From: Methanobrevibacter sp. V74
GTDB lineage: Archaea; Methanobacteriota; Methanobacteria; Methanobacteriales; Methanobacteriaceae
Direction of reading: 5' to 3'
Length of the DNA: 34,004 bases
Assembly (NCBI RefSeq): GCF_963082495.1
Contig: NZ_CAUJAN010000009.1
Span: forward strand, 1 to 34,004
The translations under genes were made by a program, and so were the position numbers. The number at the start of each line of letters is the position of its first letter. The stretch's first letter is position 1. The notes under the pieces were generated by a model. That model was not told where the DNA came from. It ran no database searches and was given only the letters and a program-made list of their open reading frames with translations. Positions 5,667 to 26,660 of this stretch are shown in pieces.

Positions 5667-7082
5667 ATGATGGACATGTTAATAGGTGGAAAAAATATAT
5701 CTAGTGAAGATGTACTTGAAGTTAAAAATCCATATGACGGTGATGTAATAGATACAATCCCAATTGCACACAGACAAACTGCAGATTTAGCAATCAGTTG
5801 TGCAAATATTGCTAAATATGAATTAATTGAAATGTCCGCTTTTAAAGTATCAAATAAATTATTCAATGTTGTTGAGAAGTTAAAAGATAAACGTGAAGAT
5901 TTTGCTAAATTGTTAACTTTAGAAGTTGGAAAACCAATAAATGAATCCTTAAGTGAAATGGATAGGTCGATTGAAACTCTTAAACTTGCTGCTGAAGAAG
6001 CAAAAAGAATTTATGGGGAAAGCGTACCTTTGGATGCAGGATTAAATGGTAAAGGATTTTTTGCATTTACACAAAAGCTACCATTGGGGGTAGTTGCTGC
6101 AATAACTCCATTTAACTATCCGTTAAACTTAACAATCCATAAAATTGCACCGGCTATTGCATGTAAAAATACTGTGATTGTAAAACCGCCAACAGAAGCA
6201 CCATTGACAGTAATGAAATTCTGCGAATTATTAAATGAGGAATTTCCAGACGGTGTTGTAAACACAATCACAGGATTTGGTTCTGAAATTGGGGATTATT
6301 TAGTTTGCTCTGAAGGTGTTGATAAAATCTCATTTACTGGAAGTGTAACAACTGGAATAATGATTTCACAAAAAGCAGGAATGAAGAAATTAACTTTGGA
6401 ATTAGGTGGAAATGACCCAATGATTGTCTTGAAAGATGGAAATATTGATAACGCTGTAAAAGGCATAATAAATGGAGCATTTTTAAATGCAGGTCAGGTA
6501 TGTATGGGAGTTAAAAGAATAATTGTTGAAGAGGGCATTGCCGATGAGTTTTGTGAAAGATTAGTTAGTGCAACTGAAAAACTAGTCATGGGTGACCCAT
6601 TAGATAAAACCACCACTCTTGGAACATTAATCAATGAAAATGCAGCTAGACAAGTTGAAGAAACAGTTAATAATGCTGTAAGTGAAGGGGCTAAAATATT
6701 GACTGGAGGTAAAAGGGATGGAGCATTTTATCAGGCTACTGTAATTGATAATGTTAAAACAGATATGGATTTGGTTGTAAATGAAACCTTTGGGCCTGTT
6801 GCACCAATAATTCGTGTTGGAGATATTGATGAAGCGATCAATGTTGCAAATGATACTGAATATGGTCTTCAAGCAGGAGTATTTACCTCAGATTATTCCT
6901 CAGCAATGAGATGCGCTCAGGAAATTGAAGCGGGAACAGTATTCATAAATAAACAATCCACATTCAGAACAGACAACATGCCATTTGGCGGATTTAAAAA
7001 TAGTGGTGTTGGAAAAGAAGGAATAAAATATGCTGTAGAAGAAATGACTAAAACAAAATTAATAGGATTAAATTTAAGGTAA
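5667..7082 (+). CDS. cofA: Lactaldehyde dehydrogenase, F420 biosynthesis
   Basis: A 471-residue NAD(P)-dependent aldehyde dehydrogenase. The fold landmarks are present: the ITPFNYPLNL active-site loop near residue 145, FTGSVTTG in the cofactor site, the general base E in TLELGGNDP, the nucleophile C in NAGQVCMG, ETFGPVAP, and the C-terminal PFGGFKNSG. It follows the pattern of the methanogen enzyme CofA (MJ1411 type), which oxidises lactaldehyde to lactate for coenzyme F420. GGTGAT at 5661 serves several in-frame ATGs (5667, 5670, 5676). The one at 5676, giving MLIGGK, aligns best with the family, so the first three residues may not be translated. TATAAATTA lies at about 5644-5652. A lactaldehyde substrate is inferred from family and organism. 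Confidence 0.85.
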   Translation: MMDMLIGGKNISSEDVLEVKNPYDGDVIDTIPIAHRQTADLAISCANIAKYELIEMSAFKVSNKLFNVVEKLKDKREDFAKLLTLEVGKPINESLSEMDRSIETLKLAAEEAKRIYGESVPLDAGLNGKGFFAFTQKLPLGVVAAITPFNYPLNLTIHKIAPAIACKNTVIVKPPTEAPLTVMKFCELLNEEFPDGVVNTITGFGSEIGDYLVCSEGVDKISFTGSVTTGIMISQKAGMKKLTLELGGNDPMIVLKDGNIDNAVKGIINGAFLNAGQVCMGVKRIIVEEGIADEFCERLVSATEKLVMGDPLDKTTTLGTLINENAARQVEETVNNAVSEGAKILTGGKRDGAFYQATVIDNVKTDMDLVVNETFGPVAPIIRVGDIDEAINVANDTEYGLQAGVFTSDYSSAMRCAQEIEAGTVFINKQSTFRTDNMPFGGFKNSGVGKEGIKYAVEEMTKTKLIGLNLR

Positions 7083-7095
7083 TTTGATCCTTAAT

Positions 7096-7818
7096 TCATT
7101 TTAAATAATTTTCAACAAGATTACGTGTTTCATTTAATGATTCCATTGGAATATTTTTCGGTATTTGTCCAAGTTCACCTTCAACTTCTTTTAAAATATT
7201 ACCATTCATTCCAAGAAACATTCCTTCACTAACAATATCACTAAAGGCTTGTGGCGGCAACAAGGATACTCCTACTTTGTTATCATCTTTAACATTCATA
7301 TCATTTGTTACAACAGTAATTGCTCTTTTTCCAAGATTTACATTACAAAGCATTAAGTCTTCATTTTTCGGATGTTGTGTAACACTCATAACTTCCCCAA
7401 CTTTAATGTCAACTCCAAGAATAGGGTCATTAATAGATCCTAAGGATAGCCTATCTTTTAGGCCAATAATGGAATCTAAGAAAAATCTTACTTTTGCAAT
7501 ATTTTCTTGGGTTTTTTCACGATCTTCTTTAGGCGTATTTCTTAAGAATTTTTTATTCCAATCATCTCCTCCTAAATATTCGATAATCATTAAGGCTTTT
7601 TTATTTAAGGCAGCAACATCTGGTGAATTTACCAATTCATCCCCCTCAAGGTAAGAATAAGTTAATGATTGGAAATCACTATTCATTTGTTTTCCCATAT
7701 CAATTGCTTGTTTTTTATTCCAACTTCCTCTAAAAGAGGCTGTTGGAATAAGGTTTAAATAATTTTCTCTTGCTTTGCTTGCTACTAAAATTCTATAATC
7801 TTTTGTTGTATCCCACAT
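7096..7818 (-). CDS. tRNA-binding (EMAP/OB-fold) protein, COG2517 type
   Basis: 240 residues. The N-terminal half is a helical domain (starting MWDTTKDYRILVASKAREN). The C-terminal 100 residues form a tRNA-binding OB-fold of the EMAP-II/MetRS-beta type: DIKVGEVMSVTQHPKNEDLM, then NVNLGKRAITVVTND, then VGVSLLPPQAFSDIVSEGMFLG. Methanogens carry a stand-alone protein with this layout (COG2517, predicted RNA-binding with a C-terminal EMAP domain). It probably binds tRNA or assists a tRNA-modifying or charging enzyme; the exact role is unknown. It converges on cofA with 13 bases between and looks intact. It marks the left edge of the conserved block before the variable island. Confidence 0.8.
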   Translation of the reverse strand: MWDTTKDYRILVASKARENYLNLIPTASFRGSWNKKQAIDMGKQMNSDFQSLTYSYLEGDELVNSPDVAALNKKALMIIEYLGGDDWNKKFLRNTPKEDREKTQENIAKVRFFLDSIIGLKDRLSLGSINDPILGVDIKVGEVMSVTQHPKNEDLMLCNVNLGKRAITVVTNDMNVKDDNKVGVSLLPPQAFSDIVSEGMFLGMNGNILKEVEGELGQIPKNIPMESLNETRNLVENYLK

Positions 7819-8296
7819 TTAAAGCCCTCTTTAATGTCTATTTTATATTTTTATTTTGTAATCTAATAAATTTTTTGCAAATTCTTTTTGGGTTATTTTT
7901 CTTTCTCTAATGAATCCATTATCTTTGATAATATATTTTTTCGACACAAAACAATCAAATATTTTAAAAAATTATGTGATGAACATATCAAAAGAATAGA
8001 CCATTTCGCTCCAATTAGATTAATTGGTGTTTAAAAACATTAATATCAGAAAAAAAGTTTTTAATGGAAACTTTGTCCAAGTGAAATCATACAAGTTTTT
8101 GAAAGAGCCAATACTATCTTCATAAGTAACTTTAAATATAATATACGCTAAATATTATTTAATTAAAGATTGACAATAAATAACAAATTCATTTTAAAAA
8201 ATAAATATAATAAACACCAATCAAAATCAACAAATAAATAATATTATAATAATGACAAAATAAACCTAAAAAATCAAATTCTTAAATCGAAGACAT
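7819..8296. other. Non-coding boundary region with small gene and IS remnants
   Basis: No intact gene. A frame ending at a stop at 8034 reads FRHKTIKYFKKLCDEHIKR and then IDHFAPIRLIGV, protein-like and perhaps the tail of a dead transposase, but I cannot assign it. At 8087-8109 lies the IS-end-like 23-base repeat (TCATACAAG, then TTTTTGAAAGAGCC). The rest is AT-rich and featureless. The adhesin repeat unit begins at about 8299. Confidence 0.5.
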
Positions 8297-10655: not shown

Positions 10656-11833
10656 ATGGGTAACAACCAACTTTTAAATGAAATACATTTAGCAAACAAC
10701 CACGCCCACGCAACAAGAAAATCCTATAAGATGTCAGTGAACATCTACTGTTCATTTTTTGACATGAGCCTGCACGATTTGTTGCAAGAAGCAGAAGAAG
10801 AGGAAAGCAAAGGAGTAAAATGGAAATTATCTTCCCTAAAAAGGAGACTGATTGAATTTAGACACTATCTTCTTGAAAATTATGCCTACAATTCTTATGT
10901 AAGCATTTTCAATTGCATCATCAACATCTACAGATACTATGACATTGAAATCTACAAACTCCCCAAACTAAACCACAAGGCCATAAAAAAATTCAAACCG
11001 CTTAACTTTAAGGACTTGCCTGACAAAGCAGTAATCAGAGAAGCAATAAACATTTGCTCCCCTCTGATGAAAGCTCTGATTCTTTTTATGTGTTCCAGCG
11101 GTTGTGCAATTCAGGAAGCAACAAACCTGACCATAAACGATTATCTAAAAAGCATTGATGACTACACTAACAAGAGAGATATCTTCGAAGCTATCAATGA
11201 TATTAAAGGCCGTGACGATATTGTTCCAACATGAAATATCTGGAGACAAAAAACAATAAGTATTACATCACATACTCCAGTCCCGAATCAGTCACTGCCC
11301 TTAATTCCTATTTGATTTCTAGAAATGATCCTATTGACGGCAACTCACGACTATTCAAGTACCATAAACAGTATATGCATAAGAGATTCATTGAAATAAA
11401 TAATGAATTGGGTCTTGGAACTACAGGTGATAACGGATATAACCGCTTCAGAAGCCACATGCTTCGTAAGTTTCATGCATCTGCCCTATACAATGACGGC
11501 ATGAGCTTGGACAATGTAAACGATTTGCAGGGCAAATCAAAGAACAAAACAGATGCAGCATATTTCATGATCAATCCCGAAGATTTGAAATATGAATATG
11601 TTAAGCATTTACCGGCTATTACAATAAACAAAGAGGTTGAAAAACTGTCCGTCAAATCTCCAGAGTTTGCACAAATGGAAAATGAAAATCAAGAATTAAA
11701 ATCTGAATTGAATGATCTGAAATCAGAAGTATCCCGTTTAAACAATGTCCAATCACAAATTGATGATGCAGGGCACTGCACAGACATCCAAAGTCAGCAT
11801 CGATTACAACAAACTGAATTCTTACCTTCTTGA
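10656..11833 (+). pseudogene. Tyrosine recombinase/integrase split by one-base deletion
   Basis: The first frame (to 11234, 192 residues) has an N-terminal SAM-like core-binding domain and the start of the catalytic domain. The second (from 11231, 200 residues) holds the rest, with HMLRKFHAS (the H-x-x-R box) and AAYFM with the nucleophile tyrosine. The junction ACATGAAATATC would read on smoothly if it were ACATGGAAATATC (TWKYLETK), so one G is missing. The result is an accidental ATGA stop/start overlap. In the first part the sequence SSGCAIQEATNLT has alanine (residue 151) where most tyrosine recombinases have the first catalytic arginine. The C-terminus is a coiled coil (ENENQELKSELNDLKSEV). 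The gene is GC-richer than its surroundings. It probably inserted this element but now looks dead. Confidence 0.8.
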
Positions 11834-13672
11834 AAAGACAGGCAAGGATTTCTTTGACTTGGAAATGTACAGACACATACCACTTATTGAAGGCGAATAC
11901 AATAGCAATCCATTTTCAAAGGAATATGTTTCTTTAAAATATGTAAATGTTCCCGAAACCGTTGAACTGCATAATCTGGATGCAACCAATAATCGTGAAT
12001 GGATCAGCTGCAAGGCAATGGTTAAAAACATCACTGACATACGTGTTGACTTGAAACTGGCAGTATTTGAATGTGTGAAATGCATGTCACAAACAGTTGT
12101 AGAAGTATCCCGCAACAAAAACATGATAGTTCCAAGTGAGTGTGAAAATTGCAAAAAAGGAAAAATGAGAATTTCAAAGGAAATAAGTGAATTTAAAAAT
12201 TTTCGCATTGCCAAACTAGAAGAGCCACTGGAAATGCGAAAAGGAGGAGTGACACGAGAATTTAAAGGGTATATGCAAGATTATCTTGCATCCCCTTACA
12301 ATAACATTAAAGCAGGTGCCGTAGTTGATTTAACCGGAGAGTTTCTCGTCGAACCATACACAAAAGATGAACTTGAATCCTACGAATTCTTGATTGACAT
12401 CCACAACATCACACCTATAGATGATGCATTTGAGGATTACCTCTTAACGTCTGCTGATAAGGAAATGATAATTGAATTATCCAAACGACAAGCCATCTAT
12501 GAGATATTGGTCAATACACTGGCACCTGAAGTCTATGGCTATGAAACAGTCAAGGAAAGTTTACTTCTGCAACTGTTTGAAGGAGCACGACCTAAAGATG
12601 ACGTATTCAAAACAGACATCATAGATAGGTGGACATCACATATACTTCTTATTGGTGATCTGGAATCGGAAAATCACAACTGATTACAGCAGTCAATAGA
12701 CGAGCTCCTAAAGTGATTAGCATTTCAGGAACCAACACAAGCCAGGTCGGATTAACCACCAGTGCCGTTAAAGATGAACTGACTGGTGGATGGACAATGG
12801 AAGCGGGAGGAGTGATATTAGCCGACAGTGGTTTATTGATAATTGATGAGTTTGACAAGCTTTCACCATCAGCACAGAAAAGCCTGAACGAACCGATGGA
12901 ACAGCTGAGCATATCATCTGCCAAAGCAGGTATTGTTAAGACAATGAGTGCAAGAACAAGCATACTTGCAGCGGCCAATCCCAAATACTCAAGATTCACT
13001 GATTCAAAACCGATTAATGATCAATTGGATATTGCTGAATCAACATTATCCCGATTTGATTTGATATTCGCACTAAGGGATGATATCAGTGAAGCAAAAG
13101 ACCGTGAACTGGCAAGAACCTTGCTGACTAAAAAGACCAATGAAAATACCTTGGAAAGATTAACTGATGAATGTTTTGAAAAATACATTACCTACATGAA
13201 GGCCAACTGCTTTCCTACACTAACAGATGAAGTAATTGAGCTGTTGTCTGAATTTTATGTGGATGTGCGCCAGCAGGCAACTCAAAGCCATGAAGGCAAA
13301 GCTATTACAGCACGAGACCTCAAGTCACTGGAAAGGTTAACGATTGCACGTGCAAAATGTGAAGGGCGAACATTAACAACAATAGGTGATGCGGAAGATG
13401 CCATCAGAATCTATAAAGAAAGTCTGCATAGCTTAGGCTTGAATTTAACAACAGCAGGTGAAATAGTCGGCGTTAAATCAGATAAGGAGATGGAAATCAT
13501 ATTTGATTTTGAAAGGATGATAAAAGCCAAAGTGGATTTTGAAGGACTGCCCTTGTCAAGTGAAAGTATCCATTCTTTAAAAACGGAATGTGGTTTGATG
13601 TGTCATGGAACAAGTCTTGATAAGGAAAGAGTCTTTAGGGAGGCAATGAAGAAAATAGAGAGAATATTTTAA
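11745..13672 (+). pseudogene. Mobile-element MCM replicative helicase, frameshift in Walker A
   Basis: The first frame (11745-12683) is the MCM N-terminal domain. It has a zinc site from C110-x2-C113 and C133-x2-C136, an OB-fold, then the start of the AAA+ domain at HILLIGD. The second frame (to 13672) continues with KSQ-like DNA, ISGTNTSQVGLTTSAVKDE, the Walker B box LLIIDEFDK, AAANPKYSRF and the arginine-finger box STLSRFDLIF, and ends in a helical winged-helix-like region. GGTGATCTGGAATCGG at about 12655-12670 should be GGTGATCCTGGAATCGG (GDPGIGKS), so a single C is lost inside the ATP-binding loop. The start overlaps the end of the recombinase, with no good ribosome site, so the true start is unsure. 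MCM genes next to integrases are typical of archaeal integrated elements. Sampled GC is 28 of 60 at 12721-12780. Confidence 0.85.
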
Positions 13673-15653: not shown

Positions 15654-16980
15654 TTAAGCAAAAAAGTAATAAGTTTGTTTAATAGTAATTCTTCTAATTA
15701 AATTCTTATCAAACATCATATTCAAATCATGTTTTGCAGTAGATTTAGAAATACCATGTTGATTTGCATAAGATTCATATGTAAATTGAGCATCTTCATT
15801 TTTCATTTTAAGTAATGCATCAATTTGCCTGTCATTAAGGTTAAACTCTTTAAAGTCTTCTGCGGTTGGATTTTGAGGAAGTATCAGTTTACCGTTTGGT
15901 CCTCTTAAAACTACTCTAAAGTAAAATCCATCCTCAAATTCAGGTTCTGGAAGATTGCTTTTTTTCATTTCATTTCTCATACGGGCGATTCCTGTACCGA
16001 TGTGTTCCATATATTCTGTTGTTTGAAATATTTTACAGATGTTTTCGTTTCTGTGTATCGGGTTTTTTTCAACACCCCAATCTTCAATGGTCATAGGAGA
16101 AGGTAGTTTTCCGGGACTAATTATTTCGATTCTGTCATCATATATGTAAAATGTTATGCAGTTCCTTCTAATGTGTAATCCCTGTGAGCTATTGCATTGA
16201 TGAATGCTTCCCTTACTGCTTTAATTGGATATTCTGGAATTGGTGTTCTTTTCATTCCGGTTACAATTCCACCCATTTTGGTGTTCCTGGAAAAGAAACT
16301 GTCGAATTCCTTTATCAATTTGAAAAATGAGCTTTCTGTAAAATGTTTGTCTATTATTTCAAGTCTTTCGGTACCATTGAAGCGGACCATTTTCACTTCA
16401 TGCTCCAGGTCAAATTTGGACATATCCTTTGCAAAACATAATGCACCTGCTTTGTTGAAATGAAAAACATCATTCTTATCAATTTTACCTGCACCAATAT
16501 ATGCAAGGATTTTATCCAGGCTCCTTTTTCCAAATAGTCCCCGAATGTTATCTTCAACCACATCCAGATAGAGTTCAACAGCCTCTTCATCAACATCATC
16601 AATTGAAGAGTTGTATAATGTCTGATTATCATATGCAACACGTGTCAATCTTTTATCGATTGCATCCTGCAGACTATCTTTAACTGCATCCAGCAATTCC
16701 TCTTTGGTTGTGAAAGTATCATATTAGTTACTTTTCCAATCCTTTCTAAAAATCTTGTGCTGCCCTCATCTCTTGTTTTGCAGTCTTTGACGAAAAAATA
16801 TGCATCGTGCTTATCAGCTATGAAAGTGTTGTATTCATATTCAGTTGCTGAAACACCATCATCGTAGATGTTTCCGTAATGTTGGCCAATCAGTCCAATA
16901 TAAACATCAGCTTCTTCAACTTCATTCAGTAATACTTCATTAGCAGCTTCAGTTTTAGCCCCATCTATTTCAAAAACAAA
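15654..16980 (-). pseudogene. DUF4062-like/GHKL ATPase/winged-helix protein, truncated and frameshifted
   Basis: Read on the minus strand from about 16980: FEIDGAKTEAANEVLLNEVE and EADVYIGLIGQHYGN resemble a DUF4062 domain. A linker follows, then the GHKL-type ATPase domain of AlbA-like regulators (HATPase_c_4): AVREAFINAIAHRDYTLEGN, IEIISPGKLPSPMTIEDWG, EHIGTGIARMRNEM. The last 60 residues are a winged-helix (NDRQIDALLKMKNED, then HGISKSTAKHDLNMMF). One base is missing at about 16715 (ACTAATATG should continue as YDTFTTKEELLDAV) and one at about 16163 (GGAACTGC for GGAAACTGC). The 5' end is lost where an adhesin tail is joined. Such proteins are found among regulators and defence genes. As read it is not functional. 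Confidence 0.75.
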
Positions 16981-17107
16981 CAGTAAAGGTGTTGCAACAT
17001 TTAAAGTTAAACTGACCAAAAAAGGAACCTTTAAGACAACCACTAAGTTTGCAGGTGATTCCTACTACACTGCAAAAAGCACTACAAGTAAAATTATCGT
17101 AAAATAG
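16976..17107 (+). pseudogene. C-terminal fragment of another adhesin-like protein
   Basis: On the plus strand this reads SKGVATFKVKLTKKGTFKTT then TKFAGDSYYTAKSTTSKIIV, K and stop at 17107. It is the typical last Ig-like (Big_3-like) repeat of archaeal surface proteins. It has no start and no upstream coding sequence, because the DNA before about 16976 codes for the ATPase gene on the other strand. A terminator hairpin follows it. It is a leftover of an adhesin different from the 8423/27679 pair. Confidence 0.7.
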
Positions 17108-17143: not shown

Positions 17144-20100
17144 TTATAATACCAATCTCATTTCATACTCATCGATTAAGTCCTGTAACAAAATAATATG
17201 GGACATATACTCTTCTTTAATAGGCATCTCTTTTTTAACCGCCCTGTAAAATTCTAATTTACTTTCAATAACTCCTGATCCACCACCTATTAATCTTATG
17301 CAACTTTTAGGATTTAAAACATTTCTAAAAACCTCAACATCCTGATTTAACTCTAATAATAATTTTAAAAAATAGATATATTCATCAAGAGAATAACATT
17401 TATATATAGCTTCAAATATTCTTCTCATATATTTCTTATTATTATGATTTTTTGAAATGAATTCTTTTATAAATTCACATTCTTTAACTCCAATTTTTGA
17501 AAGAAATATTGTGAGAGTAGCTAAATAAGAATTATCAATATAATATGAAATAATATCTTCTAATTCTTCATAAGTATAATCCAAGTCCCAAATGAAAGTT
17601 AACTTATAATTTTTATTTCTAAGATTTTTATCTTTGACCTCTCCCAATTCTATAGATTCATATCGAAGAGTCTCATCATTAGGTATTGCCCATTGTAAAT
17701 ATTCCTTTAAAAAACATTTGTCAATAGAACACATCACAGACAATTCGTTGAAATTATAATCATAATGAGAATCTATTGTTTTATTATTAAAATAGAATTC
17801 TTTTAATAATTCAAAATTATCTTTAAAATATTCATGGTATGATTCGCAGAAATCATAATTAAATCTTATAGGTTTATCTTTTGATTTTTCAATCAATACT
17901 TTAGTCATATATTGTATTATGTTAGACGTAGGTAATTTCATATCATCTTTTAGTTTTAAAAACCATTCATTATATTTTAAATATTGATTTAAATCATAGA
18001 AAATAAAATTTCCTGTTGCAGGATGAGTCAAATAGTCAATAAAATTTTCAAATAGTTGTGAAGTAATATCTTGCTCAGGAAGTTCTAAGAAAAATTCCCC
18101 ATTAAGCTTATCTTTTTCAATAGGATCTTTTTCATTTAGCAGATTATAAATTTCTAAAGAAGAAATATTAAGCTCAAATAATTTTTTTATAAAATAAGGC
18201 CTATTAAATAATTCAAACTTGTTGTTTTTATAATAATTAGATACATCCTTAAATTCACGAATATCATTATTTATTAAAACAACAAATAATTCATTAGCAT
18301 ATAACAAAACATAATCTTCATTATCTTTTATCTCATCCATTAGCTTAATTAAATCACTTGCACCAAATCTATCTAAATTTTTAGCAAATTGGATTATAAA
18401 TTTTAATTTTATCAAATTTTTCATATTTATCTAATGCATTAGAACATAAATTAATTTTTTTAATCATACCAAAATCTATAAATTCAAAATCACCATCAAT
18501 ATCAATTGAATATCTTTTTAAGGCAACAAAATATTTAAAGGCTAATTTATTTGGAACATATTGAGTATAATCCAATGTTTCTAAAAAACCATAAATTAAC
18601 GGAAATTCTTCTTGAATGATTTTTTCAACATTTTTATAGATTAACCTGATATATGATTTTAATGTATTGTAAACAAATTCAGGATAACTATCATACATTT
18701 TGAAAAGGTACTTTAATAATCTGGATCTCATTTGCATTAGTTCAGTTGTATAAACGAGCGTAAATTTAAAAAGAGTAACACCTTTACTTGTTGGTTTATC
18801 TTCATGATGATACCATTCTAAAAATCTTAAATTCTTAATAATAAATATGAATAAGTAGTCGACAACGATTGGATTAACATCCATTAAATTATTTTTATCT
18901 TCAATTACATCCATTAACAGATGTTGGAAATGGTATTGTTCATGTTCAACACTGTATCTATCGATTGAATAAATATCCTCTATATTAATCAAAATATCAT
19001 GTGTTAATGATGGGAAGTCCGTGAGTAGTTTTAATGAAAACCTAAGAATAAACTCATGTTGGTTCAGCATGAACAAAAGATTTATCATCCTATCTGTTGA
19101 GTAATGATGTCTCAAATCAGGTATTTTAAATTCTGAAAAATCATATTCTTCTCTTTTCTGGTTTTTATAATAATCCATTATAAAACGCAATGTTTTAGCT
19201 TCATTAAGCCTGTAGAAGATTTCATGGAAAGAAATTTTATATTCATCACCCAAATTCATTTCAATATGATCTAAGATAGTAGAGTATTTATTTTTGAATT
19301 CAACCATTCCAAAAATATTAAATATATCCCATATTTTAGATTTTAATTTGTCAGGATTATCTTTGATTAAAGTCTCAGCAATTTTTTTAAAAAATTAAAA
19401 AAGTCGTTTTCAACAAAAGCCAAATAAGAAATGTAAGTTGATAAAATAGAATCTTCAAAATAATACTTGTTGTCCAGTTCAAAAATTAAATTGCTCTCAA
19501 GTAGCTTTTTTAAATCATTATCCTCTTCGGTTATTTGATAATCAAACAATTCGTTTATTAAATTAATTATTGCAGAATTATCTTTTCCAATAACATCGAA
19601 AAATGAAAAAATAGACAATATTCTTAAAAGATTCTTATCTGAAAAAATATCCCTTAATTTATCATAATCCTTAAAGTAGTTTTTATATATTAATCTTGGA
19701 TTTTTGATGTAGGAAACATCTCTCTTTTCAATTATTGGTTTTATTGCCATTAAGCAGAGTGCAGGATTACCTTTAGATACTTGAACTAATTGATCAATGA
19801 GAATTTGATTAAACCTAAGACCCTCTTGTTTTAATATATCTTCAATAAGGTTTCTCATGAACAGATCTGAATAATTGCCCAATTCAATAGACTCACATGT
19901 GAAATTTCTTAAATTCTGATAAAACATATTTAAGAATTGATTTCTTAAACTAAATATGAATTTAAACTTATTTTCATCATGCATATTGTCTAAATCTTCG
20001 AGAAAGTAAGATAAGTTTGAAAAATCATCAGTATAATCATCTATAATGAATAAAAAATTATCTGATTTATTGATTATTTTTCTAATATTTTCAATTAAAC

Positions 20101-20845
20101 CAGAGGAATATCTCTTTATAACAACTATCCTGTAATTATATATTCTTGAAAATTCACGAGCAATTTCTATTGATAATCTGGTCTTTCCAACCCCTTGAAT
20201 ACCATATAAAAGCAGATAATCATTGTTTGATAACTTTTCAATAGCATCTTTAAATAAATCATCATCTCTGTAAAAATAATTTTTTAAATCAGGCCTAATT
20301 CCGTTTTTACTATTCTGAATAAAAGAATCAAGAGAATAAATTCCTTTCATATTAGGAACATTTGGGATATAACTAGCCAGATTCGGAAAATATTGCAATT
20401 CTACAGATAACCTTTGAATTCCAAATATTGTTAATTTTGTTTCAGAGTTGAATTCACTCACCAATGTTTCCAAGTCTTTAATTTCATTTGGAAGAATCTC
20501 ACTATTGAATATCAAGATGATTTCACTTATATCTGAATTAGAAATTTTGGATTGATCTTCATTGAAACAATGTTTGATATCATCATTTAATTTTTCTATA
20601 AATTTATTAACATTATTATCCCTATTTTTTGTAGTAGCCTCACAAAAAATAAACTCCCCATTATCTTTTTGAAAAAATCCATCAGGAGTTCCTCGAGATG
20701 TTTTATTTTTACCAATAACCGCACCAGGAGCCCTTATGAAATTATATCCTTTAAAATTTAAAAAATCAAAACTTAAATTTTGGAAAGTAGATTCATTTAT
20801 GGATTTTAATCCAGTTTCAATAAGAGATTTGAGTAAATCAAACAT
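17144..20845 (-). pseudogene. Nuclease-STAND NTPase with long helical repeat tail, two frameshifts
   Basis: Three frames join into one gene of about 1,230 codons. First (20845-19367, 492 residues): a restriction-endonuclease-like N-terminus (RGTPDGFFQKDNGEFIFCEA then TTK; D55, E69, K73 as the candidate PD-(D/E)xK site), then a STAND-type P-loop NTPase resembling nSTAND3, with Walker A GIQGVGKT (215-222), Walker B FLFIIDD (264-270) and FKFIFSLRNQF. Near 19383 one A is missing from a run (seven, eight expected). With it the frame reads NFLKKIAETLIKDNPDKLKS and joins the second part (to 18381). Near 18415-18422 one extra base moves the frame to the third part (to 17144). The last 740 residues are helical repeats, the usual sensor part. 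Such proteins are antiphage NTPases of the Avs/STAND kind: the sensor binds a phage protein, the NTPase oligomerises and the nuclease cuts DNA. Confidence 0.75.
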
Positions 20846-21112
20846 AATTATCAGTTTAAAAATTATATTAAAAATAATTTGTGATATTGATTATTATTAT
20901 TATTTTAATATTTTATATTTCCTCTAAATGAAATCGTGTTAGAAATAATTTTAAAATATTATTGTTTTTTAAACATTTAATAATTATTGATATATCATAA
21001 TAAATCGAAACATATCTAGTTAAAGAGAAATACAACTCAGATGAAAAAAATAATAATATAAATTCGCATATATATTAATTGGAAATGTTCTTTAAATTAA
21101 AGGTGAGTGAAC
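20846..21112. promoter_or_regulatory. Divergent promoter region between two defence genes
   Basis: 267 bases, strongly AT-rich, between the start of the nuclease-STAND gene (minus) and the ABC-like ATPase gene (plus). TATATATTAA at about 21069-21078 can serve as the TATA box for the plus-strand gene, and TATTTTATATTTC at about 20908-20920 may belong to the minus-strand gene. GGTGAG at 21102-21107 is the ribosome site of the plus gene. No clear operator palindrome seen. Confidence 0.4.
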
Positions 21113-23340
21113 ATGGATAAAATTTTCATAAATTTAAAAAATTGCCACGGAATTAAACAATTTAAACATACATTTAACTTTGAAAGAACAGGAGTTAAAA
21201 ATGCAAATATTTCTTTAATTTATGCACCTAATGGAATGATGAAAACATCCTTTGCAAAAACTTTAAAAGATATTGGCAATAACAAATCCCCACAAAATCA
21301 AATCAATGACCAACCACTTCATTATAATATTAAAATTTATGAAGATGAAAATTCATTTGAAATAGATAAGGAAGAGGTAAATGAAAGAATTTTTGTAATA
21401 GAATCAATGAACAGAGACTTTTCTTTTGAAAACACAACTCCACTAATTTCAAATAAACAATCAAGAGATGAATACAATGAAATTTTTAATGACTTAATAT
21501 CTAAAAAGAATGAATTTCTTAGTATTATAAAAAATAAAACCAAGATATCTGTTCCTCGAAATGAAGACCCATATGAATTTATTGAAAATAAAATAAATGA
21601 CGATTTAAATAATGATTCCAAATCGTTTCTAGAATTTTTATCTTCATTTTCAGAAGAGTTAGAAAATGATGATTTCCCACTTGATATTGATTCAATAAAA
21701 TATTCTGATTTATTTGATGATCCTATCCTGAAATTATTAAAAGAAGAAGAGATTCAAAACAACATCGAATCATTTTCTAATAATCTAAATAGACTTCTTT
21801 CAAAATCTAAAATTTATGATGTTGAGCATTTTAATCATAATAATGCTAATGATTTAGCAAAATCCATTAAAAAAAATAATTTATTTGAGGTGGGCCATCA
21901 AATCAATTTCAAGGGCGTTAGAAAAAATGTATCTGATTATAATGAATTAAATAATTTATTAGACAAACAAATGAATAAAATTTTTAAAGATACCTCCTTA
22001 AAAGATGATTTTGAAAATATTAATAAAAAATTTTCCAATACAAAAACAAAGAATTTCCAAAATATCTTAGTTGAACACGAAGAAATTATACCTTATCTTG
22101 ACGATATCGATAATTTTAAGAAATCATATTGGATTGCAGTTTTTAATTCAGAAAAAGAACAATTTTTAACAATTATTAATGAGTATAATGATAAACATTC
22201 AGAGTTAGATAGAATTAGATTAGATGCTTTAAATGAACAGACAAAATGGCAAAAGATTATTGAAATATTTAATAAAAGATTTCATGTTCCATTTACACTT
22301 AAATTGGAAAATAAAGAAGATGTTATATTAAAAGAAGATACTCCTCGAATATCATTTTATTATGAATACAATGATGAAGCAATTGAAATTTCATTAGAAA
22401 CCCTGAAAGAAATATCCAGTGCGGGACAGGAAAGAGCAATGTATTTATTAGATATATTATATCAAATCGAAGCGAAAAAAAGCGATAAAGACACACTACT
22501 AATTTTTGATGACATAGCTGATTCATTTGATTATGACAACAAATATGCAATAATTGAATACCTTTATGAGTTATCAAAAAGAGATGCATTTAAAATTATT
22601 CTGTTAACACATAATTTCGACTTTTTTAGAGCATTGAAATCTAGACTGAATTGTAAATACACTTATTTTGCAAGTAAAACCGAATATGGGATTATAAAGT
22701 TAGAAGATAACAATTTTGAATCATCAAATAATATCTTTGTTGAAATTCGAAAAAGAATTAAAGAAAACCCTGAAGATCATATTCGTGACATACTTGCATT
22801 AATACCATTTATTCGGAATTTATATGAATATAATGGAAATCAAGAAAATTTTCTAAAGTTAACTAAAATCTTACATTATGATTTTGATTATAATGAAGTT
22901 CCCCTTTAAATTCACTGACTAATATATACTCAGAATGGAACATTCAAATCCCCAACAACACTGAAAAAATTTATGAGTTAATTTTTCAAGAAGCTGAAAA
23001 AATTACACAAACACGAACAACACAAATCAATATCGTCAACAAGCTCGTTTTGTCAATGGCTATTAGATTAAAAGCTGAAAAGTTCATGTTTGATTATTTG
23101 AATATTACAGATACCTCAGAATTTGACAAAAATCAAACTAGAGAATTATTTAATAAGTTTAAAAATAATTCCAATGAAAATAAAGATATTGAAATACTTG
23201 AACGTGTTGCAATAATGACCCCTGAAAATATCCACGTTAATTCATTTATGTATGAACCATTATTGGATATGAGTGATGCTGCTTTAAAGGACTTGTATTT
23301 TGATGTTTTAGATTTAATTGATAGTTACAATAATTCATAA
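21113..23340 (+). pseudogene. ABC-like AAA_13-type ATPase with coiled-coil insert, one frameshift
   Basis: A large ATPase of the SMC/ABC type related to the RloC/PrrC-like AAA_13 group. The ATG at 21113 (MDKIFINLKNCHGIKQFKHT) is preferred to the GTG at 21107, which lies in the ribosome site. Landmarks: Walker A at about 38-46 (APNGMMKTS, a degenerate form with M for the third glycine); a long charged helical insert; ABC signature at about 433-446 (SSAGQERAMYLL); Walker B near 463 (LLIFDDIADSFD); H-loop near 497 (LLTHNFDF). The frame stops at 22909 with EVPL. One frame over it continues PLNSLTNIYSEWNIQIPNNT to 23340 with no other stop, so one base (probably a C in the run at 22904-22907) is missing. 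Restored length about 742 residues. A defence role is inferred from neighbours. No HEPN or anticodon-nuclease motif is visible. Confidence 0.7.
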
Positions 23341-24268: not shown

Positions 24269-25750
24269 ATGTTAAATCATATTATTAATATTACTGATCA
24301 ATACTTAGAAAACTTTCCTAAAACTGAAAGAAAAAAAATTGGCCAATTTTTCACATCCAAAAATACTGCTGTTTTCATGGCAGATATGTTTAAGGAAAAT
24401 ATTAATAAAGACTTAACTGTTTTAGACCCCGGTGCAGGTACTGGAATATTATCTGCTGCATTAATTGAAAGACTTCAAAATCTTGATTTAAATTCAATCC
24501 ATTTAGTAATGTATGAAAATGATGAAAATATTCTACCAACCTTAGAATCAAATTGCAAATATTTAATTAAATCTTCCAAAATTCCCCTAACAATTGATTT
24601 AGTTAGAAAAAATTTTATTTTAGATAATGAATTTGAAAATTCCTTATTAAACACTAATACTAAGTTTGATTTAATAATTTCCAATCCACCATATAAAAAA
24701 ATACCTAAAAAAGCCCCTGAATCTCAGAAAATGTTAAAAGTGGTTTATGGTGCTCCAAATTTGTATTTTCTTTTCATGGCAATGTCTCTGCATCTTTTAA
24801 AAGAAAATGGTGAAATGGTATTTATCATACCCCGCAGCTGGACATCTGGAAATTATTTTAAAACATTCAGGAAATATTTATTAAGCCATGGTGAAATTAA
24901 CAATATCCATTTATTTATTAATAGAAATAATTTATTTAAACAAGATTCTATTCTTCAAGAAACAATAATCGTTAAAGTGTCTAAAAGTCATAATAATCCT
25001 GAATTTATTAATGTTTCATCATCAAATGATTTTATGTTCGATGATTTGAAACGATTTAAGTTACCTTATAAATTAGCTGTATCCGAAGATGATAATTCAT
25101 ATATCTTCTTACCAACAAACAAAAGTGAGGTCAATGTTTTAACTCTGTTAAATAAATTCAAATATAATCTCACAGATTTAGGGATTAAATTAAAGACTGG
25201 TTTAACAGTTGGTTTTAGAAATAAGGAGTTGTTATCTGATTATCAATGTCCACAATCCGTACCAATATTCTATCCATGCCACTTTAATGAAGGACTTGTT
25301 AAGTTCCCTGTTGCGACTGAAAAAAAACAGTTTATTTTAAAAGATAAAGCCAATTTACTTCAGGACAATAAAAATTTCCTGTTTTTAAAAAGATTCACAT
25401 CTAAAGAAGAGAAAAGAAGATTGCAACCTGCAATATACTTACATGACTCTTTAAATGAATTTAATTACATTTCAACAGACAATAAGATTAATTTCATTGA
25501 TACAATAAATCAAAATGATTATTTAACACTATCTGAAATTTATGGATTATTTGCCTTATTTAATTCCACAATATACGATAGGTATTATAGGATTTTAGAC
25601 GGCAGCACCCAAGTCAACGCTAGTGAAATAAATTCTATGCCAGTTCCAGATAGAAATTCTTTAAAACAATTAGGTAATAAAATAATTCATTCAAGTAATT
25701 TAACAACACCATATTGTGATATGATATTAGGAGAATTAATTTATGGATAA
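24269..25750 (+). CDS. N6-adenine DNA methyltransferase of a BsuBI/PstI-type system
   Basis: 493 residues, with AGGAGG before the ATG. It opens with a helix and GQFFTSKNTAVFMADM, the typical entry to Eco57I/BsuBI-type gamma-class methyltransferases. S-adenosylmethionine motif I is DPGAGTG (53-59) and catalytic motif IV is NPPY (139-142). A target-recognition half with YHR-like DNA contacts follows and ends in the family-like DGSTQVNASEINSMPVPD. It methylates adenine in the recognition site, protecting host DNA from the partner nuclease. It is fully open, unlike most genes around it. Its last eight bases overlap the endonuclease gene, so the two are translated together. By family, the site is expected to be CTGCAG; the sequence alone cannot prove this. 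Confidence 0.88.
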   Translation: MLNHIINITDQYLENFPKTERKKIGQFFTSKNTAVFMADMFKENINKDLTVLDPGAGTGILSAALIERLQNLDLNSIHLVMYENDENILPTLESNCKYLIKSSKIPLTIDLVRKNFILDNEFENSLLNTNTKFDLIISNPPYKKIPKKAPESQKMLKVVYGAPNLYFLFMAMSLHLLKENGEMVFIIPRSWTSGNYFKTFRKYLLSHGEINNIHLFINRNNLFKQDSILQETIIVKVSKSHNNPEFINVSSSNDFMFDDLKRFKLPYKLAVSEDDNSYIFLPTNKSEVNVLTLLNKFKYNLTDLGIKLKTGLTVGFRNKELLSDYQCPQSVPIFYPCHFNEGLVKFPVATEKKQFILKDKANLLQDNKNFLFLKRFTSKEEKRRLQPAIYLHDSLNEFNYISTDNKINFIDTINQNDYLTLSEIYGLFALFNSTIYDRYYRILDGSTQVNASEINSMPVPDRNSLKQLGNKIIHSSNLTTPYCDMILGELIYG

Positions 25751-26660
25751 TTTAGATTCAGCAAAGGAAATATTAAAAGCAATTGAAATGCCTGAAAGAC
25801 AACAAAATGATATTAGCGCTTATACTTTATTAGCATTATCCCATGTTCGTGAACATGACAATTGGAGTCACGCTACCAATGACTGGATAAGGATACATGA
25901 TATAATAAGATTTATTGATGTTAATTATGATGTTCAATATGCTGAAAATTCACGCGAAACTTTTAGAAAACAAGTTATTCATCAATTTAGAGATGCAGCA
26001 ATTATTGAAGATAATGGAAAAGCCACTAACTCTCCACTGTACAGATATAGATTAACTGAGGAATTTTTAAAGTTAATACAAACTTATGATTCAACTAAAT
26101 GGGATGATTCCTTAAATGAATTTTTATCAAAACACGAATCTTTAATAGATTTATATTCTTCTAAAAGAGAATTATTAAAAAAACCAGTGTTGATTAATGG
26201 AAAAAAATTTAGTTTTTCTCCCGGCTCTCATAATGAATTACAAAAACAAATCATCGAAGAATTTGGTTCTCGTTTTGCACAAGGAAGTGAATGTTTATAT
26301 GTAGGAGATACAGCTAAAAAAGATTTATTAATTAATAATGAAAAATTAGAAGAATTAGGATTTTCAATTTCAACCCATGACAAAATGCCCGATGTTATTT
26401 TATATTGTGAAGATAAAAATTGGATTTATTTTATTGAAGCAGTTACTTCAACAGGACCAATGAATCCTAAAAGAATAGGTGAAATTAACCAGTTAACAGA
26501 AAATGTTGATGCAGGTAAGATTTTTATTACCTCATTTTTAAATTTTAGAACTTTTAAGAGATTTGCTGCAGATTTAGCGTGGGATAGTGAAGTTTGGATT
26601 GCTGAAAATCCTGATCATTTAATCCATTTTAATGGTGATAGATTTTTAGGCCCAAGGTAA
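25743..26660 (+). CDS. BsuBI/PstI-type restriction endonuclease
   Basis: 305 residues, intact. It has an N-terminal helical winged-helix-like domain (TLLALSHVREHDNWSHATND) and a C-terminal nuclease domain. The family signature is PDVILY (P216-D217) followed by WIYFIEAVTSTGPMNPKR, with E232 as catalytic acid; this EAVTS-x-GP block is typical of BsuBI and PstI. The C-terminus (WIAENPDHLIHFNGDRFLGP R) is also family-like. PstI and BsuBI recognise CTGCAG, so the same site is likely. The start overlaps the methyltransferase stop by eight bases, giving coupled synthesis with methyltransferase first. The window has at least five CTGCAG sites, including one inside this gene (26566-26571). Confidence 0.88.
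   Translation: MDNLDSAKEILKAIEMPERQQNDISAYTLLALSHVREHDNWSHATNDWIRIHDIIRFIDVNYDVQYAENSRETFRKQVIHQFRDAAIIEDNGKATNSPLYRYRLTEEFLKLIQTYDSTKWDDSLNEFLSKHESLIDLYSSKRELLKKPVLINGKKFSFSPGSHNELQKQIIEEFGSRFAQGSECLYVGDTAKKDLLINNEKLEELGFSISTHDKMPDVILYCEDKNWIYFIEAVTSTGPMNPKRIGEINQLTENVDAGKIFITSFLNFRTFKRFAADLAWDSEVWIAENPDHLIHFNGDRFLGPR

Follow-up and report, generated by a model that had tools for sequence, protein, structure and literature searches.

A broken Methanobrevibacter gene as a likely member of a widespread Avs-like STAND nuclease family, unnamed in the libraries searched and proposed to act as an antiviral switch

The closest described systems to the gene analysed here are the Avs proteins. According to PMC12931631, Avs1-4 are said to cut the genomes of both phage and host with their nuclease effectors once they recognise terminase, portal or some other protein of the phage, while Avs5 carries an nSTAND3 NTPase and a helical C-terminus. 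Avs4 consists of an N-terminal nuclease, a STAND NTPase and a long C-terminal region, as do the proteins we describe, and PD-Lambda-4 A is of similar length to them at 1264 aa. Our window, the whole stretch of DNA that was analysed, comprises 34,004 nucleotides of Methanobrevibacter sp. V74 (contig NZ_CAUJAN010000009.1). We consider it likely that the gene at 17144-20845 is a broken copy of a widespread Avs-like STAND nuclease family of ~1,240 residues, unnamed in the libraries searched, for which we propose a role as an antiviral nuclease switch.

The three minus-strand ORFs between 17144 and 20845 make up a single gene that was under constraint until recently and is broken as sequenced. ORF A (19367..20845, 492 aa) encodes a nuclease-like domain, an nSTAND3 NTPase and a winged-helix-like region, its last residues lying beyond the first frame break. 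ORF B (18381..19307, 308 aa) holds the first part of a helical sensor in another frame and ORF C (17144..18424, 426 aa) the second part. The nearest copy, P0001, is an intact single open frame of 1234 aa from the same genus (genome G086), on the contig of locus L028 from the uncultured Methanobrevibacter isolate RUG13476. By tblastn, its residues 1-485, 485-816 and 818-1234 are colinear with window frames -2, -1 and -2 (the latter two segments aligning to the stretches of ORFs B and C), with protein identities of 87, 83 and 80% in that order. This end-to-end alignment of all three frames to one protein in a relative bears out the original prediction of a single gene of about 1,230 codons. At the DNA level the window gene is 88% identical to its orthologue, and a whole-stretch alignment contains two indels only, both frame-changing, near 19394 and 18393. 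The dN/dS values against P0001 are 0.16, 0.23 and 0.30 for the three pieces, all of which are therefore constrained coding DNA, far beyond chance.

The frame breaks may stem from either decay or sequencing error. We put at roughly even the chance that the gene is an inactive remnant, a decaying, idle copy within a family that may be defensive. Besides its two frame breaks, the 34-kb contig shows damage in PDC-S46, in an extra MCM and, apparently, in a DUF4062-HATPase gene, and the gene survives in G085 as a stub and in G100 as a degraded one; against this, dN/dS is 0.16-0.30 and in-frame indels are absent, so that any decay would have to be recent, and a local sequencing error may be at work, one break lying among A/T runs and the other not. 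Mean ORF length (265 aa in the window, 219-369 aa in eight other 20-kb regions of the genome) does not decide between decay and error, because two of the eight regions fall below the window.

Several features of the surrounding DNA deserve description in their own right. The extra MCM helicase gene (window 11745-13672) is split into two ORFs of different frame, and the other MCM of this genome, on contig C4, is intact and open over 673 codons. Possibly the whole contig belongs to an element that is mobile or degraded. G085 carries the same island (S46, small gene, methyltransferase, endonuclease) with only a 38-residue stub match at the gene's expected start (L025 8668-8781), a deletion or replacement junction, and in G100 the degraded stub lies beside a different family member.

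The N-terminal nuclease-like domain spans residues 1-165 (20351..20845, minus strand), and the original prediction took D55, E69 and K73 as its catalytic residues. D55 (20681-20683) is kept in all 71 aligned rows, partly by construction because peptide patterns near residues 46-55 and 358-366, the second of which takes in G359-N360, served as queries in our genome scan; E69 (20639-20641), which like K85, D269 and the P-loop lies outside those patterns, is kept in 70. Position 73, by contrast, is K in only nine of the 71 rows, and K85 (20591-20593), present in all 71, appears the likelier catalytic lysine. The structure model places strands at 56-59 and 65-71 and a helix at 79-93; taken with the near-invariant D55, E69 and K85, this secondary structure, modelled as part of the larger protein, may be that of a PD-(D/E)xK fold, which has an alpha-beta core with D and E on adjacent strands and a conserved lysine. 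No significant sequence match to solved nucleases was obtained for it, and up to E 0.01 the window domain was matched neither by an Mrr profile, which the original prediction had named for comparison, nor by any other in Pfam or PADLOC.

Segmented negative-strand RNA viruses possess cap-snatching endonucleases in which a PD is followed by an E-x-T and, on the helix after that, by a lysine. The catalytic order in our family resembles theirs, with a lysine 10-16 residues past E69 in all 71 rows, on model helix 79-93, and the commonest Pfam match in the 46-row nuclease-domain alignment was L_protein_N (9/46 domains, best E 1.6e-4, the window domain not among them). An effector that cuts RNA or single-stranded nucleic acid instead of dsDNA would fit these observations, but we regard it as decidedly unlikely, since the matches are weak and confined to a minority of members, a shared fold does not fix the substrate, and the Avs1-4 nucleases are said to cut phage and host genomes (PMC12931631). 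DNA is the substrate that we continue to favour.

The STAND NTPase and winged-helix-like region follows at residues 166-480 (19406..20350, minus strand), with GxxGxGK at 215-221 and DD at 269-270. Pfam nSTAND3 (PF20720) matches ORF A at E 1.2e-9 and 38.5 bits, above its curated cut-off of 27.2, in agreement with the P-loop STAND NTPase originally predicted; by this profile the window NTPase is nSTAND3, which is a domain family only and silent on effector or sensor. Half of the eight sequences scanned reached the cut-off (ORF A, P0001 at 33.1, P0005 at 33.7 and P0006 at 38.6 bits), with P0002 (27.0), P0008 (26.0) and P0003 (19.0) below it and P0004 showing no listed nSTAND3 match and an NB-ARC match above that model's own cut-off. 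G215, G218, G220, K221, D269, G359 and N360 are each found in 71/71 rows, D270 in 68, R301 in 69 and P361 in 46; we take the motifs concerned to be a P-loop, Walker B, TxR-like and GxP-like. Fold matches of the region are to STAND and AAA+ proteins, and ORF A has weak NTPase matches in PADLOC to mad8 (7.1e-5) and IetA (1.3e-3). Beyond the NTPase, the model's secondary structure at 395-463 would suit a winged helix, and a repeat superstructure follows.

That superstructure, the C-terminal ~750 residues (479-1234 of P0001), models as an alpha-solenoid with generic matches only, which upholds the predicted helical repeats and corrects their length from ~740 residues. The sensor has no family of its own in the libraries searched, as had been anticipated. 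Mean pairwise identity is 0.40 for both the nuclease and the NTPase and 0.26 for the sensor, and judged by these alignments the sensor changes faster than the other two parts. The nuclease-STAND-helical-repeat layout is seen in the intact orthologue, and each intact homologue that was read combines a STAND part with an N-terminus of nuclease type, which in two of them is a different, Avs4-type nuclease.

Structural comparison supports the proposed likeness to Avs. For the N-terminal half, Foldseek ranks Avs4 in complex with phage portal first (8dgf, E 4.4e-12), although the TM-score is low (0.33 by query) and good scores also go to clamp loaders and RuvB; the 50 VIA matches listed, which mostly cover residues ~170-480, do not include Avs4. 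The NTPases of Avs4 and the family align (E 3.5e-5), whereas no profile alignment is found between Avs4 and the window-type nuclease, the sensor of one Avs4 protein is not alignable with that of the family (hhalign probability 0.3, E 0.22), and that Avs4 measures 1,587 aa against ~1,240 aa here. P0001 has no PADLOC match up to E 0.1, the Avs1-3 and Avs5 profiles of PADLOC 2.0.0 included, and its one NCBIfam match is at chance level and not to an Avs model. Avs5 shares the nSTAND3 domain and helical C-terminus, and its structures 9jap and 9nc9 appear in the fold matches; by description, its SIR2 effector, as opposed to the nuclease-like effector of the family, sets it apart. The NTPase region of PD-Lambda-4 A aligns with ours (E 2e-11) and its sensor does not (E 0.4); its PADLOC model leaves P0001 unmatched and matches P0006 weakly (E 0.028).

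In two archaeal relatives, P0005 (G076) and P0007 (G100), the NTPase and sensor are those of the family and the nuclease is different. P0005 matches the PADLOC Avs4 model over residues 3-311 (E 8.2e-48) and the NCBIfam Avs4 model over residues 4-233 (175 bits, where the cut-off is 1500), and is 40.8% identical over residues 4-154 to Avs4 of enterobacterial plasmids. The N-terminus of P0007 aligns closely with that of P0005, the Avs4 profile matches themselves being those of P0005. In a tree of NTPase and sensor alone both proteins group with P0001 (99/99) within the archaeal clade, and an AU test of a group picked after the first, quick tree had been seen rejected the four window-type archaeal rows as one clade (p-AU 0.0075). 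That quick tree warned of long branches meeting at the placement of P0005 and P0007, whereas a mixture-model tree flagged no long end branch and kept the placement. As far as alignments and trees can show it, these two relatives have exchanged a window-type nuclease for one of Avs4 type while keeping the chassis. Convergent to the Avs4-type member in G076 is a gene for a 1184-aa protein (L022 3860-7411) with no Pfam match up to E 0.01.

This exchange, together with the nSTAND3 domain of Avs5 (PMC12931631) and the fold matches to Avs4 and Avs5, might be taken to mean that the family is a divergent member of one of these named Avs types, with the same sensor and target class. We consider this very improbable, given the missing PADLOC and NCBIfam Avs matches of P0001, the restriction of P0005's Avs4 match to the nuclease and NTPase start, the sensor comparison with one Avs4 and the difference in length, Avs5 being weighed by description. 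Membership of Avs4 itself was rejected on the same profile and sensor results. The family is instead probably new and Avs-like, with its own nuclease head and its own sensor, and probably serves abortive antiviral defence.

The genome scan matched 180 stretches, 107 of them relatives. By title, 76 of the best 80 of these 107 are bacterial and four archaeal, so 'archaeal', as the sensor was first described, is not the family's character. Seven full-length proteins were read and many full-length ORFs are of similar size, for a family of ~1,240 aa. Among 138 genomes of the same taxonomic family, ORF A is matched in nine (own genome and the stub included) and ORF C in seven (own included), and the orthologue is matched in eight of 151 genomes of the phylum, including the own genome and one probable contaminant. 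The 73 tree rows include 45 from Bacteroidota, six each from Pseudomonadota and Bacillota, three from Ignavibacteriota and one each from Cyanobacteriota, Planctomycetota, Balneolota and Methanothrix. Members also occur on Leptospira plasmids (13 records). A single supported clade (100/100), adjacent to one of Bacteroidota, unites the six Methanobrevibacter-type rows, and the Methanothrix row is placed elsewhere, which suggests that the family moved more than once between Archaea and Bacteria. No homologue was found in the phage sequences searched or in viral contigs scanned with one degenerate pattern, and Pfam, NCBIfam and PADLOC searches returned no model of the family's own. The L073 member, in the binned Methanobrevibacter genome G021, is identical to a protein from a Dysgonamonadaceae bin at all but one of 1279 residues, and L073 is probably a contaminant contig.

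For the 71-row count, eleven of the 80 loci were dropped as cut, short, broken or near-duplicate (L058, L068, L074, L075, L083, L086, L090, L096, L099, L102 and L103), as was L072, which is absent from the ORF match list. P0001, P0002 and P0006 represent L028, L029 and L073; L026, P0003 and P0004 were added, the near-duplicate L027 was left out, and P0005 and P0007 were aligned and not counted. The alignments for folding comprised 67 and 65 rows, that of the nuclease domain 46.

The gene had been placed between other defence genes, and this holds on one side. Divergent from it lies a PDC-S46 defence candidate (21107..23340, plus strand; PADLOC E 1.5e-159 for the first ORF), broken once near 22903 as judged by tblastn of the G085 copy, which spans two frames; the intact copy in G085 has 741 aa and stands beside the same restriction-modification pair. 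That pair comprises an open type II DNA methyltransferase (24269..25750, plus strand; Pfam Eco57I 6.1e-21, PADLOC MTase_II 5.3e-112) and an open BsuBI/PstI-type restriction endonuclease (25743..26660, plus strand; Pfam 1.5e-59). On the other side are ORFs with DUF4062 and HATPase_c_4 profile matches (15657..17043, minus strand), apparently one broken gene. The middle ORF (16154-16696), between those with HATPase_c_4 and DUF4062, matches the PADLOC pAgo model (E 2.1e-11).

Across the family, members tend to adjoin defence genes more than control regions of the same genomes do. At 1e-30, 132 ORFs flanking 18 family loci match 106 PADLOC models, against two models (SspA and DndA) for 142 ORFs in 18 control regions, hand-picked on the same contigs at least 34 kb from the family gene. 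Eighteen of 20 genomes entered this comparison, L030 and L040 being left out for their short contigs. We take the two control matches to be housekeeping-like cysteine desulfurases. The models are redundant (of 25 listed, 24 are Gabija and one RT/helicase, with 2-3 proteins behind each), so that they give a clear contrast and not a count of defence proteins. Individual neighbours include PD-Lambda-4_A beside a Leptospira plasmid member, a DpnII-type pair beside the member in G065 and a TIR gene beside that in G086. FRG-domain genes lie near three archaeal members (L019 3878-4867, L020 9048-10235, L018 6420-7490), and two of them immediately precede the family gene in its own orientation, at distances of ~15 and ~180 bases. 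One neighbour cluster is common to six loci, its two scanned members being integrases, and no partner gene is widely shared among the family loci. In four Bacteroidota loci (L060 at 6850-7987, L046, L051 and L093) the family gene is immediately preceded by two small genes, possibly an accessory pair; the second, in L060, has a nucleoside deoxyribosyltransferase match below cut-off.

STAND proteins also serve in transcription and signalling, and a regulator or stress switch with no tie to viruses would be in keeping with that. The invariant nuclease residues, the defence-gene neighbourhoods and the effector exchange with Avs4 make this reading most improbable, and we return to antiviral defence. 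In our model, the NTPase would be held off at rest until a viral or other foreign protein bound the alpha-solenoid C-terminus. ATP-dependent assembly would then follow, by STAND and Avs precedent, and the clustered N-terminal PD-(D/E)xK-like domains, using D55, E69 and probably K85, would cut nucleic acid, most likely DNA, thereby killing or arresting the infected cell. We infer, in short, that the solenoid senses, the NTPase assembles and the nuclease cuts. A bolder proposal, which we think unlikely but worth stating, is an unnamed, cross-domain class of STAND immune receptor with a cap-snatching-like endonuclease (PD..ExT..helix-borne K), exchanging effectors with Avs4 and sensing a virus structure assigned to no Avs, that of methanogen viruses included.

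The nuclease swap on a conserved NTPase-sensor chassis amounts to a natural domain swap, by which effector and sensor functions could be separated by test. If our reading is right, Methanobrevibacter and many bacterial phyla would have in common a compact Avs-like receptor family whose sensor is named by none of the libraries searched, and this family would be a concrete candidate for the means by which methanogens recognise viruses that infect them.
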